Source: a virus
Virus record (IMG/VR): IMGVR_UViG_3300035703_000375
Location: 1-26,706 of that record
Length of the DNA stretch: 26,706 nt
Strand: one strand, 5' to 3'
The notes under the pieces were generated by a model. It saw only the letters and a program-made list of their open reading frames with translations, was not told the origin of the DNA and did no database searches. Positions 4,360-7,521 of this stretch are shown here, piece after piece. Every line of letters starts with the position of its first letter. Positions within the stretch are counted from its first letter, which is position 1. A program made the translations under genes and the position numbers.

Positions 4360-4599
4360 TTATGGCTTGCTGTAGACGTTGGATATTTTTCCATTAAGAC
4401 AAATCTTGCGACTTTTTAGCTCTCCCAATTCGATTAGCCTCCTCAAATGTGAGGCTGCCGTATTTTCTGGTAGCTTGCGCCCATCCTTGGAGGCTTCTTG
4501 GATAAACTCTTTAAGCGTAAACTCATCCTCCCGCTGCACGTTATCGTTGAGCGACTCGAGCGCGGTAAGAATTGCCGATTTGTTTCCGATTTTTTTCAT
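4360..4599 (-). CDS. small winged-helix-like protein
   Basis: This encodes 79 residues. The order is helix (SAILTALESL), helix (TLKEFIQEASKDG), helix (NTAASHLRRLIELG) and a basic beta wing (ELKSRKICLNGKISNVYS). This is the layout of a winged helix, although no family is recognised. It sits between the endolysin and the phosphoesterase gene. A regulator of late genes is possible but not shown. The leader is CTAACCAACAAAAACACC with no Shine-Dalgarno site. Confidence 0.65.
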   Translation of the reverse strand: MKKIGNKSAILTALESLNDNVQREDEFTLKEFIQEASKDGRKLPENTAASHLRRLIELGELKSRKICLNGKISNVYSKP

Positions 4600-4605
4600 G
4601 GTGTT

Positions 4606-4617
4606 TTTGTTGGTTAG
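4606..4617 (-). promoter_or_regulatory. recurrent start-proximal leader motif CTAACCAACAAA
   Basis: Read on the minus strand, this 12-mer ends 6 bases before the ATG at 4599. It differs by one base from identical 12-mers before the starts at 11410 and 14506. It occupies the place of a ribosome binding site. Confidence 0.4.
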
Positions 4618-5412
4618 TTAGTCTGCGGTGTAAACTCTGCGATGCACAAGCGGAAGTTCCCCCTTCTCAACCTGCCTCATGTCGAGGATGACAACCGAAG
4701 GTTGTGGAACCGCGTCTGGCACGACACGGTAGCCGTAGCGGGTGAGACCCTGCCATGCGCCGGTGATGACGCTGATCTGGTTGCCATCGTCCCAGATTCC
4801 GTGCCTATGGCGATGCGCCCTGCACATGACCTTCGGGACTGCTTTGCCAGCCCTCGCCCGGCTGTGAGTCATATTTCCTAGCATGATGCTATGAGCAGAT
4901 GCCTCAAGGTAGCTGCGAGCTGTGGCCGAGATATGGTGCGCAAAATTCATGAGCGTGCCGTTCACCTCAAGATCCAGCGTGTCCCATGCGTTTTGCCCGG
5001 TAGCAGGGTTCTTGGTGGCACCTAGCGCACGCCCGATGCGGATCTCGTCATTGCGGCTGTGGGCCTCTGTCCCCTTGATGATGTGCAGCTTGTGGCAGGT
5101 CTCCGCAAGAAACCCAAGCACTTGTCTCACGGCGTCCGTCTGGTCGCCGGGATCTGGTGTCATTACTTGCAGCGTCTTGTGGTGGATGCCGTCCACGAGG
5201 TCGCCATTGACGACCAGATCGAACTGATCCTTACCGATGACCTTTTGCGCCCAGACCAGCATATCCTCCCAGCACTCCCACAACCACTTCTGGAACTCGT
5301 TTTGCCCAACAGGATTGCCTTCGTTGGAAACAAAGTCTTTTGGCCATAGCCCGACAGTACTGCCAACGTGGAGGTCGCTCATGAGCATCACGAGCTTTGA
5401 TGTAGTTTTCAT
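4618..5412 (-). CDS. calcineurin-like metallophosphoesterase
   Basis: This encodes 264 residues. The metal-binding motifs appear in order: SDLHVG (D13, H15), VNGDLVDG (D71), a GTEAHS block at 114-119 in the place of the usual GNHD/E, FAHH (157-160) and CRAHRHRHG (198-205). These support a two-metal phosphodiesterase or phosphatase. The substrate cannot be read from sequence: nucleic acid, cyclic nucleotide or a phosphoprotein are all possible. It lies in the lysis part of the late operon, an unexpected place for a replication enzyme. The ATG at 5412 overlaps the end of the next gene upstream by 4 bases. Confidence 0.8.
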   Translation of the reverse strand: MKTTSKLVMLMSDLHVGSTVGLWPKDFVSNEGNPVGQNEFQKWLWECWEDMLVWAQKVIGKDQFDLVVNGDLVDGIHHKTLQVMTPDPGDQTDAVRQVLGFLAETCHKLHIIKGTEAHSRNDEIRIGRALGATKNPATGQNAWDTLDLEVNGTLMNFAHHISATARSYLEASAHSIMLGNMTHSRARAGKAVPKVMCRAHRHRHGIWDDGNQISVITGAWQGLTRYGYRVVPDAVPQPSVVILDMRQVEKGELPLVHRRVYTAD

Positions 5413-5714
5413 GGATTTAGTTTGTTTTCAAGTTTCTCCCACGCTGGGAAGAAAATATTGTCGATAGCACGGACGATGCTTTCCTCGTCAAAACGATCAG
5501 CGAATGAACAACCGCTGACAGCAAGAGCAGCATGAATAACCTCATGCCTCAATGTATCTTTGAGAATCTTAGGATTGGCAAGGCATTTCTTTGACAACAG
5601 GATTTGCCTGTCATCAAACAGCATTTGACCCCAATCATCGTTCTCAAGATCACGAAATAGGATCTTAAACTTCTGACCTCCTATGCTGACAGATCTCGGT
5701 GTTTTCTGTCTCAT
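5409..5714 (-). CDS. HExxH metallopeptidase-like protein
   Basis: This encodes 101 residues. HEVIH at 57-61 sits in a hydrophobic helix (TLRHEVIHAALAVSG), the hallmark of zinc metallopeptidases. An acidic pair in FDEES (76-80) could supply the third ligand. The N-terminal part has short strands ending in ILLSKKC, as in the SprT/phage-metallopeptidase type. At this length it is a minimal domain without a visible signal peptide. It overlaps both neighbours as ATGA (5409-5412 and 5711-5714), so it is co-translated with the phosphoesterase and the lipoprotein. Substrate unknown. Confidence 0.7.
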   Translation of the reverse strand: MRQKTPRSVSIGGQKFKILFRDLENDDWGQMLFDDRQILLSKKCLANPKILKDTLRHEVIHAALAVSGCSFADRFDEESIVRAIDNIFFPAWEKLENKLNP

Positions 5715-5977
5715 TGATCTCCTATGATAATAGCTCGTCGATAGGCGTAGTGAGAGAAGAACTTCTGACCATCCCCATCCACATACCCTTCCTTGAAATG
5801 GTAACGAACGCTAGGAAGGAGGGTCACCGTCACAGGGTTGCGTAGTGCTGCCTCGTTTTCTCTTGAGACGCTTCGCCAGTCGCTCCAGCCGCAACTGGGC
5901 AATAGGGCTGCCATCAGCAGCAAGGCGGTCAATCTCGTCCTCAAGGTGGTCGAGTTCTTTTTCACGCTGCCAATCAA
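5711..5977 (-). CDS. small lipoprotein, candidate outer-membrane spanin subunit (Rz1-like)
   Basis: This encodes 88 residues. There is a basic N-terminus, a hydrophobic stretch (LTALLLMAALLPSC, residues 16-29) and a cysteine at 29 fitting a lipoprotein cleavage site, although proline at -2 is unusual. The mature part ends in VTLLPSVRYHFKEG and a Tyr-rich segment. It is not proline-rich as classic Rz1 is. It starts inside, and in a different frame from, the upstream helical gene, overlapping it by 167 bases, the arrangement typical of Rz/Rz1. The spanin assignment is inferred from position, topology and overlap. A free-standing lipoprotein is the alternative. Confidence 0.6.
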   Translation of the reverse strand: MIGSVKKNSTTLRTRLTALLLMAALLPSCGWSDWRSVSRENEAALRNPVTVTLLPSVRYHFKEGYVDGDGQKFFSHYAYRRAIIIGDQ

Positions 5978-6029
5978 CCCATTTCACATAGGCTTGGCAA
6001 GCAGAAATTATTGCTAGGACAAAATTCAC
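5811..6029 (-). CDS. small membrane-anchored coiled-coil protein, candidate inner-membrane spanin (Rz-like)
   Basis: This encodes 72 residues from a GTG at 6029 overlapping the previous stop as GTGA. It has a short hydrophobic N-terminus (MNFVLAIISACQAYV). A charged helix follows with WVDWQREKELDHLEDEIDRL and LRLERLAKRLKRKRG (about residues 17-59), a probable coiled coil. This suits an inner-membrane spanin subunit, which bridges to a lipoprotein partner, but it is shorter than lambda Rz and the membrane segment is only about 15 residues. The overlapping lipoprotein frame strengthens the idea. Confidence 0.5.
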   Translation of the reverse strand: MNFVLAIISACQAYVKWVDWQREKELDHLEDEIDRLAADGSPIAQLRLERLAKRLKRKRGSTTQPCDGDPPS

Positions 6030-6178
6030 TGGGCATCAGCAGCTTTCAGCAGCCCGATGCCAGCTGTGATTGCGGTAATGGTGGCCCCAAAATCCACATT
6101 TTGCCCATTCAGTAGGGCAACTGCGGTATTTACGACTGCCGCCAAAATCGTCAAAACACCCAATGCTGTAGTTTTCAT
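6026..6178 (-). CDS. 50-residue hydrophobic membrane protein, holin-like
   Basis: ATG at 6178 to TGA at 6026-6028 gives 50 residues with two hydrophobic segments: MKTTALGVLTILAAVVNTAV, then FGATITAITAGIGLLKAADA after the polar turn NGQNVD. It fills the gap between neighbours and overlaps the next start as GTGA. I recall similar very short hydrophobic proteins in lysis regions of environmental phages, but no function is established. It may be a holin, an antiholin or a membrane accessory protein. Confidence 0.6.
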   Translation of the reverse strand: MKTTALGVLTILAAVVNTAVALLNGQNVDFGATITAITAGIGLLKAADAQ

Positions 6179-6700: not shown

Positions 6701-7521
6701 GGCAGTGTGAGTCCAGAACACGCCTCCCACATTGTCTTTAGGGCAGCCGTGTATTGGTCGGCTTGGGTTGTTGTCATGGCTAACCCAGCATGGGCAGCAC
6801 CAATCTGTGATGTGGAATAGCCAGAGATTGAGCCTCCGTTATTTACAGCCATTAAATTTATGGCAACAGTAGGGAATCCTCCAGTCGAAGACGCTGTACT
6901 TGTCCCAAGTGATGAAACGCCAGATGTTTTTCTTTTTCTGAAAAATCTTGAGTTTGATGCTGTTTCAGAAACAACATAGATGCCAAGTCCATCTTGTGAT
7001 GTAGAGTTAATGTCAACGCCAATTCCACCACCAACAGTCATTGGACTAGAAGTGTAAATAAGCGAAATTCTAATCAGTTTTTTGCTGGTTTGCGTAACAC
7101 CAATTGGAACATTGAAAGATCCAGAAGATTGTGGCGAGTAAATTAAACAAGAAACAGAAGCATTGCCGTCAGCCAAACCAATGGTGTCTGGGCTTGCATC
7201 CATTGCAAGCCTACCAGTTGAACCATTCCCTTGAATGTAACCAGTTGCATGCGTAACTGTGCCGCTAAATGTTCCACTATTTGTGGTGATTAGATCAATC
7301 GCATTTGCAGCAGCCACCCCCCAAACAGGAAGATAAAGCCTCTTCAATTGATCGTACCAGCCTTCGTCCTTTCCAGTCTCATAGAAAGTGCTGATTGATT
7401 TCTTTTGCGCTCCACTAACTGTAGCGCCAGCAGCTACAATATCGTCGATGTACGCCTGTGCGTCAGGGTCTAATGCAGTCGGCATAAACCCACCAATTCG
7501 ATTTGCCAGTGCGTAAAACAT
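6697..7521 (-). CDS. lectin-like virion or fibre protein
   Basis: This encodes 274 residues. An N-terminal helical part (to about residue 65) includes DPDAQAYIDDIVAAGATVSG, a layout I know from phage fibre-associated proteins. It is followed by a beta-rich Gly/Ser/Thr domain with features of a concanavalin-like sandwich: GYIQGNGSTGRLAMD near 93-107, then VSCLIYSPQSSG and alternating strands. The C-terminus (TTTQADQYTAALKTMWEACS) returns to helix. A role in receptor or glycan binding is inferred. It overlaps the upstream gene by one base (TGATG) and lies between the connector-type gene and the lysis block. Confidence 0.65.
   Translation of the reverse strand: MFYALANRIGGFMPTALDPDAQAYIDDIVAAGATVSGAQKKSISTFYETGKDEGWYDQLKRLYLPVWGVAAANAIDLITTNSGTFSGTVTHATGYIQGNGSTGRLAMDASPDTIGLADGNASVSCLIYSPQSSGSFNVPIGVTQTSKKLIRISLIYTSSPMTVGGGIGVDINSTSQDGLGIYVVSETASNSRFFRKRKTSGVSSLGTSTASSTGGFPTVAINLMAVNNGGSISGYSTSQIGAAHAGLAMTTTQADQYTAALKTMWEACSGLTLP

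Follow-up and report, generated by a model that had tools for sequence, protein, structure and literature searches.

The described systems closest to the genes considered here are the DP1 subunit of PolD, an archaeal 3′–5′ proofreading exonuclease; Mre11/SbcD; the phrog_284 exonucleases; and, on the protease side, SprT/Spartan (SPRTN) and IrrE/PprI, together with the SprT-like proteins of mycobacteriophages. Here we examine three minus-strand genes in the virus record IMGVR_UViG_3300035703_000375 (26,706 bases, a fragment from a phage, that is, a virus of bacteria; hereafter the window). They encode a protein with an HExxH motif (HExxH, 5714-5409), a calcineurin-like phosphoesterase (MPE, 5412-4618) and a winged-helix-like protein (wH, 4599-4360), and they lie in a lysis block. 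The set is conserved, but modularly: phosphoesterases of unrelated families replace one another, and HExxH and wH stay. We tentatively read the three genes as a late DNA-processing cassette, granting that this may well be wrong. Literature searches, which included passages of PMC12363180, PMC10721889 and PMC11686378, found no description of such a cassette.

Compared with these systems, MPE has its best fold and sequence-profile match in DP1, for which passages of PMC10721889 give D360, H362, D404, N450, H497, H560 and H562 as metal ligands and H451 as the catalytic residue. By motif matching in profile alignments, MPE H118 answers to the catalytic histidine and D13, H15, D71, H159, H200 and H202 answer to D360, H362, D404, H497, H560 and H562, that is, to six of the seven metal ligands; a WQ..T stretch is also common to both. 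Unlike DP1, the phage MPE is a lone domain of 264 aa, has GTxxH at the N450 position and has a small winged-helix-like protein as its neighbour. Mre11/SbcD shares the phosphoesterase fold (Mre11 Z 14.2) but is less similar to MPE than DP1 is; by eye, no Rad50/SbcC gene was seen beside MPE among the listed neighbours, a reading made without a Rad50 profile search and on a window that is a fragment. One phrog_284 exonuclease fills the MPE slot next to HExxH (locus L087; loci from our scans carry the prefix L), whereas those of S-CBS1, BU2-1 and KBS-S-2A are sited among replication and recombination genes; in the cyanophages, two of these three, the opposite strand carries an endolysin about 1.7 kb beyond. 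HExxH shares its active-site motif with SprT/Spartan and IrrE/PprI and has the SprT domain of Spartan as its top fold match, but it falls under the Pfam cut-off and, with only 101 aa, has no room for a zinc ribbon or a DNA-binding tail. The mycobacteriophage SprT-like proteins are likewise phage-encoded and are structurally similar to the same entry for human Spartan, 6MDX, although the passages of PMC12363180 that concern them name neither a linked nuclease/wH cassette nor a lysis-block site.

Results

Relatives of HExxH led to phages in which an MPE of another kind, whose GNHD motif is canonical, stands behind this gene and is in turn followed by a wH. The GNHD-type MPE and the window-type MPE, which belongs to a GTxxH rather than a GNH(D/E) subfamily, are not recognisably related (profile comparison probability 0.8%). 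Among the best 80 of 224 relatives of the GNHD-type MPE, wH lies downstream in 68 of the 72 loci with room for it, HExxH is found in 58 of 75 (53 adjacent, 5 about one gene away), and the full triad is present in 50 of the 67 loci that leave room both upstream and downstream. The counts come from metagenomic contigs whose ORFs (open reading frames) were called by a simple script, and because many of the scanned contigs are related the loci are not independent; counted by MPE cluster, the triad occurs in 17 of 24 at 90% identity and 2 of 3 at 70%. In the same loci, the wH profile of the window's cluster (E <= 1e-3, 5,291 ORFs) gave 70 matches in position and 2 further downstream of MPE. These phages are partly related to the window (DnaC-like protein in 20/80, g7521 in 22/80), and tail-region and other genes are common to some.

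The exchange can be followed at the DNA level. Between L329, with a window-type MPE, and L348, with a GNHD-type MPE, HExxH is 93.2% identical over 294 bases, the MPE gene and the first part of wH have no DNA similarity, and identity returns inside wH (86.7% over 150 bases); L365 compared with L348 follows the same pattern (89.0% in HExxH, 87.0% in wH). A K-[IL]-G-type motif in wH, chosen after looking, occurs in 9 of 10 wHs behind window-type MPEs and in 0 of 67 behind GNHD-type MPEs, a count that leaves out wHs lacking the anchor motif (1 window-type, 3 GNHD-type). This is a suggestion that the N-terminal part of wH may dock on its own type of MPE. Identity over the whole segment is mixed: the N-terminal parts of L005/L091 (0.46 vs 0.33), L012 (0.38 vs 0.33) and L366 (0.62 vs 0.46) are nearer to a GNHD-type wH, L323 is tied, and L329 and L365 are not nearer.

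The association of MPE with wH extends to distant phages. Scans with MPE (the best 80 of 144 relatives, two GenBank records and the window) yielded 83 loci, which form 15 single-linkage clusters at 50% identity. The gene downstream was read where room allowed, partly by eye and with Pfam backing only some of the readings. A small HTH-like (helix-turn-helix-like) gene lies directly behind MPE in 10 of the 15 clusters, another small gene that looks nucleic-acid-binding in 3 (a zinc ribbon in L010, other HTH genes in L038 and L047; within the L038 cluster, L044 departs from this and has a methyltransferase-like gene there), and nothing clear in the remaining 2 (L014; L043/L048). Searched over 8,607 ORFs with a threshold of E < 1, the wH profile of the window's cluster gave 11 matches in MPE loci belonging to other clusters and the profile of a second cluster gave 10, and every one of these (11/11 and 10/10) was directly behind MPE; in loci without a window-type MPE the two profiles gave 6 and 5 matches, most of them behind the other MPE type, that of L095 not. 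Comparison of these two wH profiles gave E 6.1e-7 and a probability of 92%. At E 1e-4 none of 30 other window proteins matched in any of the 73 distant MPE loci, so the pairing is not due to a single phage lineage. The window wH has no clear Pfam HTH match (E about 0.1 only); in a set of 25 wH relatives (A4), HTH_24 was matched by 6 (best 1.2e-8) and HTH_20 by 5 (best 5.8e-9) at E <= 0.1. A search for HE..H within 3 kb found HExxH in 7 of the 10 loci of the window's cluster and in 2 of the 73 others (L043 and L048), in both of which HExxH and the start of MPE appear to share 4 bases; L037, also one of the 73, has the order MPE, wH, HExxE.

Several variations on the gene order around MPE were seen, the gene labels being given by eye. 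An HNH-like gene stands between MPE and wH in L119 and L162, the wH match lying further downstream. In L045, L063, L070 and L077, and not in L062, a DUF4406-like gene lies directly upstream of MPE and downstream of small membrane and endolysin-like genes; this is another block of the lysis type, whose HExxH slot is taken by a different gene. In L007, the place immediately upstream of HExxH, which in the window belongs to the spanin-like pair, is filled by a DUF1353-like gene (L007:3887-4279).

A scan for HExxH relatives, in which the L087 protein was the lead bait, shows what company this gene keeps. Of the best 80 of 163 relatives, 74 are followed on the same strand, within 2.6 kb, by one of four phosphoesterase or nuclease types: a PD-(D/E)XK-like protein (46), a GNHD-type MPE (19), a window-type MPE (8) or the phrog_284 exonuclease (1). 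A wH match stands alongside 7 of the 8 window-type and 17 of the 19 GNHD-type MPEs and none of the 46 PD-(D/E)XK-like genes, and phosphoesterase and wH thus occur together in 24/80. Clustering of HExxH at 80% identity gives 19 clusters, of which, counting matches anywhere in the locus, 18 have at least one enzyme-bearing locus and one (L362/L368, beside TerS) has none; two of the 18 also hold enzyme-less loci, and two depend on by-eye readings, left out of the 74/80 and on which Pfam is silent, that we take to be RuvC-like (L295) and a further MPE-like protein (L360). HExxH relatives beside TerS are found in L095-L098, L362 and L368.

In the reverse direction, HExxH is on the same strand in 76 of the best 80 of 92 relatives of the PD-(D/E)XK-like protein, and the other 4 loci have at most 517 bases upstream; the two genes overlap by 4 bases in 17 loci, and in others they have genes between them. 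These loci, from marine phages, share with the window its amidase (74/80), lipoprotein (63/80) and i-spanin (62/80), and in flanks of up to 3 kb no other window protein tested was matched. The motif of the PD-(D/E)XK-like protein (E56, D77, [D/E]86-x-K88) was read by eye from the alignment, and tblastn of GenBank phages with this protein returned 1 record.

The original prediction had named the three genes as a candidate for an undescribed functional set, and had asked whether their order is conserved in other phages. The set does recur, and the picture of its order is mixed: in most of the distant clusters MPE is still paired with wH, HExxH being mostly absent there, and an enzyme follows HExxH in 74/80 of its relatives, although a phosphoesterase with wH does so in only 24/80.

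For the window MPE alone, the Pfam Metallophos match is under the cut-off (E 0.051), and 29 of 43 members of its family reach E <= 0.1 (best 1.7e-7); judged from these relatives, the predicted assignment is clear. Twelve columns are invariant in 43 homologues including the window (D13, H15, G17, N69, G70, D71, G75, G114, H118, H159, H200 and H202), so that the Metallophos motifs (D-x-H, GD, GNH(D/E), H and GHxH) are invariant save for the Asn of GNH, where GTxxH is found. An AlphaFold2 model (pLDDT 91.5, pTM 0.91) has PolD DP1 as its top solved structure with both Foldseek (E 3.3e-10) and VIA (Z 19.2, 2.9 A, 221 residues), ahead of Vps29 (Z 15.5), Mre11 and LpxH (Z 14.1). At Z >= 8 there were 447 of 996 aligned chains, and the 50 chains listed are of the Metallophos fold, so the modelled MPE is a calcineurin-like phosphoesterase in fold. 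The MPE sequence profile retrieves DP1 at E 3.4e-6. The top single-sequence match is the NCBIfam model of the PolD small subunit (E 6.1e-5; 22 bits, where the cut-off is 445), and NCBIfam offered no usable name beyond this sub-threshold one. The likeness to DP1 in sequence and model supports a nuclease activity of MPE, short of proof.

The GTxxH subfamily is widespread, apparently mostly viral, and close to the PolD exonuclease subunit. A scan of 84,980 species genomes with one narrow peptide pattern confirmed 3 MPE relatives among 140 candidate stretches; being a single scan with a single pattern, it only indicates that MPE is rare in cells. Among GenBank phages, tblastn found 2 records for the window MPE and 0 for the GNHD-type MPE of L101. 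In one such phage, ctMEh928 (L009, MW202647.1), an unannotated MPE ORF (5306-6094) is 40% identical to that of the window and is followed, with a 4-base overlap, by a wH-like CDS. The MPE gene of L044 (1283-3121, 612 codons) has a HINT/LAGLIDADG-like middle that by eye resembles an intein and sits after the conserved His159-type loop.

HExxH has H57, E58, H61 and an E77-E78 pair, of which H57, E58 and H61 are invariant in an alignment of the window protein with four relatives. Its Pfam SprT-like match (PF10263, E 3.9e-4) scores 20.7 bits, under the 25.6 cut-off; Pfam Peptidase_M78 (IrrE/ImmA) gave no match to the window protein. The best PHROG match is phrog_1233 (E 1.3e-9), a family without known function. 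The model (pLDDT 92.1) predicts a minimal SprT/IrrE-like metalloprotease fold, its best fold matches being the Spartan SprT domain (Z 7.7), IrrE (6.4), selecase (6.3) and Wss1 (5.6), and the top match in the viral library BFVD is named SprT-like (E 3.1e-9, 42% identity). The zinc ligands, on which the original prediction had placed weight, are kept in most homologues: of 126 distinct sequences, 110 have HExxH and 1 is a fragment. The remaining 15 have HExxE. GenBank phages returned 0 tblastn records for the window HExxH, the L037 HExxE and the L102 HExxH proteins.

Discussion

Gene order, its conservation, the enzyme swaps, the predicted folds and the conserved active-site residues are the observations from which an account of this locus must start. 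The use of a protease together with a nuclease is a known logic in DNA–protein-crosslink repair, and the account we favour, tentatively, is that of a late DNA-processing cassette in which MPE would be a two-metal nuclease of the PolD-DP1/Mre11 type, wH its DNA-binding partner, presumably in contact with it, and HExxH a small SprT/IrrE-like metalloprotease acting beside nucleases on DNA-bound protein. Behind HExxH, the PD-(D/E)XK-like protein fills a slot comparable to that of MPE with wH, and the simplest reading of these arrangements is that MPE and wH together perform a nuclease job and that HExxH may act alongside nucleases. The SprT/IrrE-like fold and the nuclease-like neighbours suggest that proteolysis of DNA-bound protein could be coupled to DNA cutting. 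Around the time of packaging and lysis, such a set might clear DNA–protein obstacles or degrade nucleoprotein, either that of the host or what is left unpackaged; that this would happen late in infection is suggested by the position of the genes in the lysis block.

A more specific version, which we consider doubtful, is that lysis cassettes carry a two-step nucleoprotein-clearing machine, formed by a minimal Spartan/IrrE-like protease and an interchangeable nuclease: a DP1-like or GNHD-type phosphoesterase with wH, a phrog_284 exonuclease or a PD-(D/E)XK enzyme. This machine would resemble SPRTN with MRN in DNA–protein-crosslink repair, and would release DNA so that it can be packaged, or break up the nucleoid of the host when the cell lyses.

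Lysis-block genes that have no known function are usually overlooked. In the present case a protease-like gene recurs with a nuclease-like gene, and the enzyme is exchanged while its neighbours are kept; the claim that protease, nuclease and DNA-binder share one late-infection job is therefore specific and testable. If that claim is true, phages encode a minimal counterpart of the protease-plus-nuclease logic of crosslink repair.

A number of points weigh against a DNA-processing cassette. Lysis blocks gather accessory genes, so neighbourhood alone is no proof. Among the HExxH relatives, 6/80 have none of the four enzymes, and the two genes are directly adjacent in only 36/80, being up to about 2.6 kb apart in the others. 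We give the PD-(D/E)XK label to a motif read by eye, and PDB and PHROG searches gave it no support. The fold matches of HExxH are weak (all Z < 8, under the secure level, with Foldseek E 0.02-0.04), and the HExxE variants depart from the motif. On the side of the phosphoesterase, MPE consists of the phosphoesterase domain alone, with neither the OB domain of DP1 nor DP2 in the protein, and because the N450 position is variable among its homologues, its metal site may differ from that of DP1. Nor is the small partner uniform: the wH profile of the largest distant cluster found nothing outside its own cluster at E < 1, its comparison with the window-cluster wH was not significant, and of 10 small-partner representatives Pfam was silent in 5 and sub-threshold in the rest.

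The alternative that survives best, although we regard it as rather improbable, is that these are accessory morons with unrelated jobs, gathered at a hot spot, the distal end of the late operon, and kept together by shared ancestry and recombination. HExxH is missing from 17 of 75 GNHD-type MPE loci with room and from nearly all distant MPE loci, wH went undetected in all 46 PD-(D/E)XK-type loci, some HExxH relatives sit beside TerS instead, and endolysins are also exchanged within the same block. What such a collection explains poorly is that wH follows MPE even in phages without any other tested window protein, and that L329 and L348 differ by a swap confined to the middle of the cassette, with its partners retained.

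Less probable still is a counter-defence function, in which MPE would degrade a cyclic nucleotide or another abortive-infection signal and wH and HExxH would regulate or assist it. The calcineurin-like superfamily includes nucleotide phosphodiesterases, and the genes do occupy an accessory slot. The nearest fold to MPE, however, belongs by a clear margin to a subunit of a DNA exonuclease, and among the enzymes in the same slot are a PD-(D/E)XK-like protein and the phrog_284 exonuclease. Membership in a known family of defence or counter-defence genes was rejected: in PADLOC, MPE and HExxH had no match, nor did the three swap partners tested, and wH had only AbiEi (0.028) and Csa3 (0.037).

We think it unlikely that the locus is a regulatory switch in which an ImmA/IrrE-like HExxH cleaves or controls a wH repressor that times late or lysis genes, with MPE as a phosphatase input. 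IrrE and PprI are among the HExxH fold matches, the homologue in L360 scores 23.5 bits for Peptidase_M78, above the cut-off of 22, and wH relatives match regulator HTHs; yet wH-MPE pairs exist without HExxH, and no wH was detected beside HExxH in 46/46 PD-(D/E)XK loci.

An accessory role in lysis, with an LpxH-like MPE and a protease modifying the envelope, is very improbable, and the envelope target that the original prediction offered as one possibility is not supported: the location in a lysis block, LpxH as a fold neighbour and the company of endolysin, lipoprotein and i-spanin genes in marine phages speak for it, but by eye neither MPE nor HExxH has a lipobox or an obvious signal sequence, DP1 fits MPE better than LpxH does, and the fold, the DNA-binding-type partner and the swap partners point to nucleic acid. 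Envelope enzymes were rejected on this basis as a leading explanation. Standard holin or spanin parts were rejected as well, since family searches gave no such homology, in agreement with the earlier view that these are not standard lysis genes.

Organization of the locus and additional observations

The three genes lie, as first described, on the minus strand between an endolysin and a spanin-like pair. In the order of transcription, two small membrane ORFs (6398-6183 and 6178-6026, read by eye) precede an i-spanin-like membrane ORF (6029-5811), which overlaps the gene of an o-spanin-like lipoprotein (5977-5711, 88 aa); HExxH, MPE and wH (79 aa) follow, and then the endolysin, an N-acetylmuramoyl-L-alanine amidase (4347-3691; Amidase_3, Pfam E 1.6e-19), all on the minus strand. 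The lipoprotein and spanin labels were given by eye. The ATGA coupling already noted for the lipoprotein, HExxH and MPE genes can be read from the sequence at both junctions, at 5711-5714 (lipoprotein stop, HExxH start) and 5409-5412 (HExxH stop, MPE start); gaps of 18 and 12 bases separate MPE from wH and wH from the endolysin gene. Against the two close relatives L002 and L003, respectively, dN/dS is low for HExxH (0.026, 0.039), MPE (0.039, 0.064) and wH (0.019, 0.051), which supports purifying selection on all three frames, and hence that they behave as real genes. The window has neither a tRNA nor any Rfam match that reaches the gathering score.

An M15-like peptidase (by eye; it resembles the Peptidase_M15_4 protein of L101) replaces the endolysin in L005 and L008. 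Behind the endolysin, the window has a small membrane ORF (3733-3539, minus strand; VGLSYGVKGDWPWALTWTAYALANVGLILAA) that is possibly an extra lysis-block gene, and look-alikes, recognised by eye, lie behind the endolysin or wH in L005, L100 and L101.

DNA identity to L002 and L003 is uneven. It is 95-98% over 4511-4690 (the 3′ end of MPE, the spacer and the 5′ end of wH) and 68-93% in 60-base steps over the MPE part 4691-5110; in MPE residues 243-264, same-residue codons are 95-100% identical across the window, L002 and L003, and 50% identical against L005. A clean recombination unit of MPE and wH between the window and these two relatives was rejected, the identity profile being mosaic. Elsewhere in the window, identity to L002 and L003 drops to 57-66% over 6812-7111, inside the gene at 7521-6697, as expected of a variable tail or receptor-binding gene.

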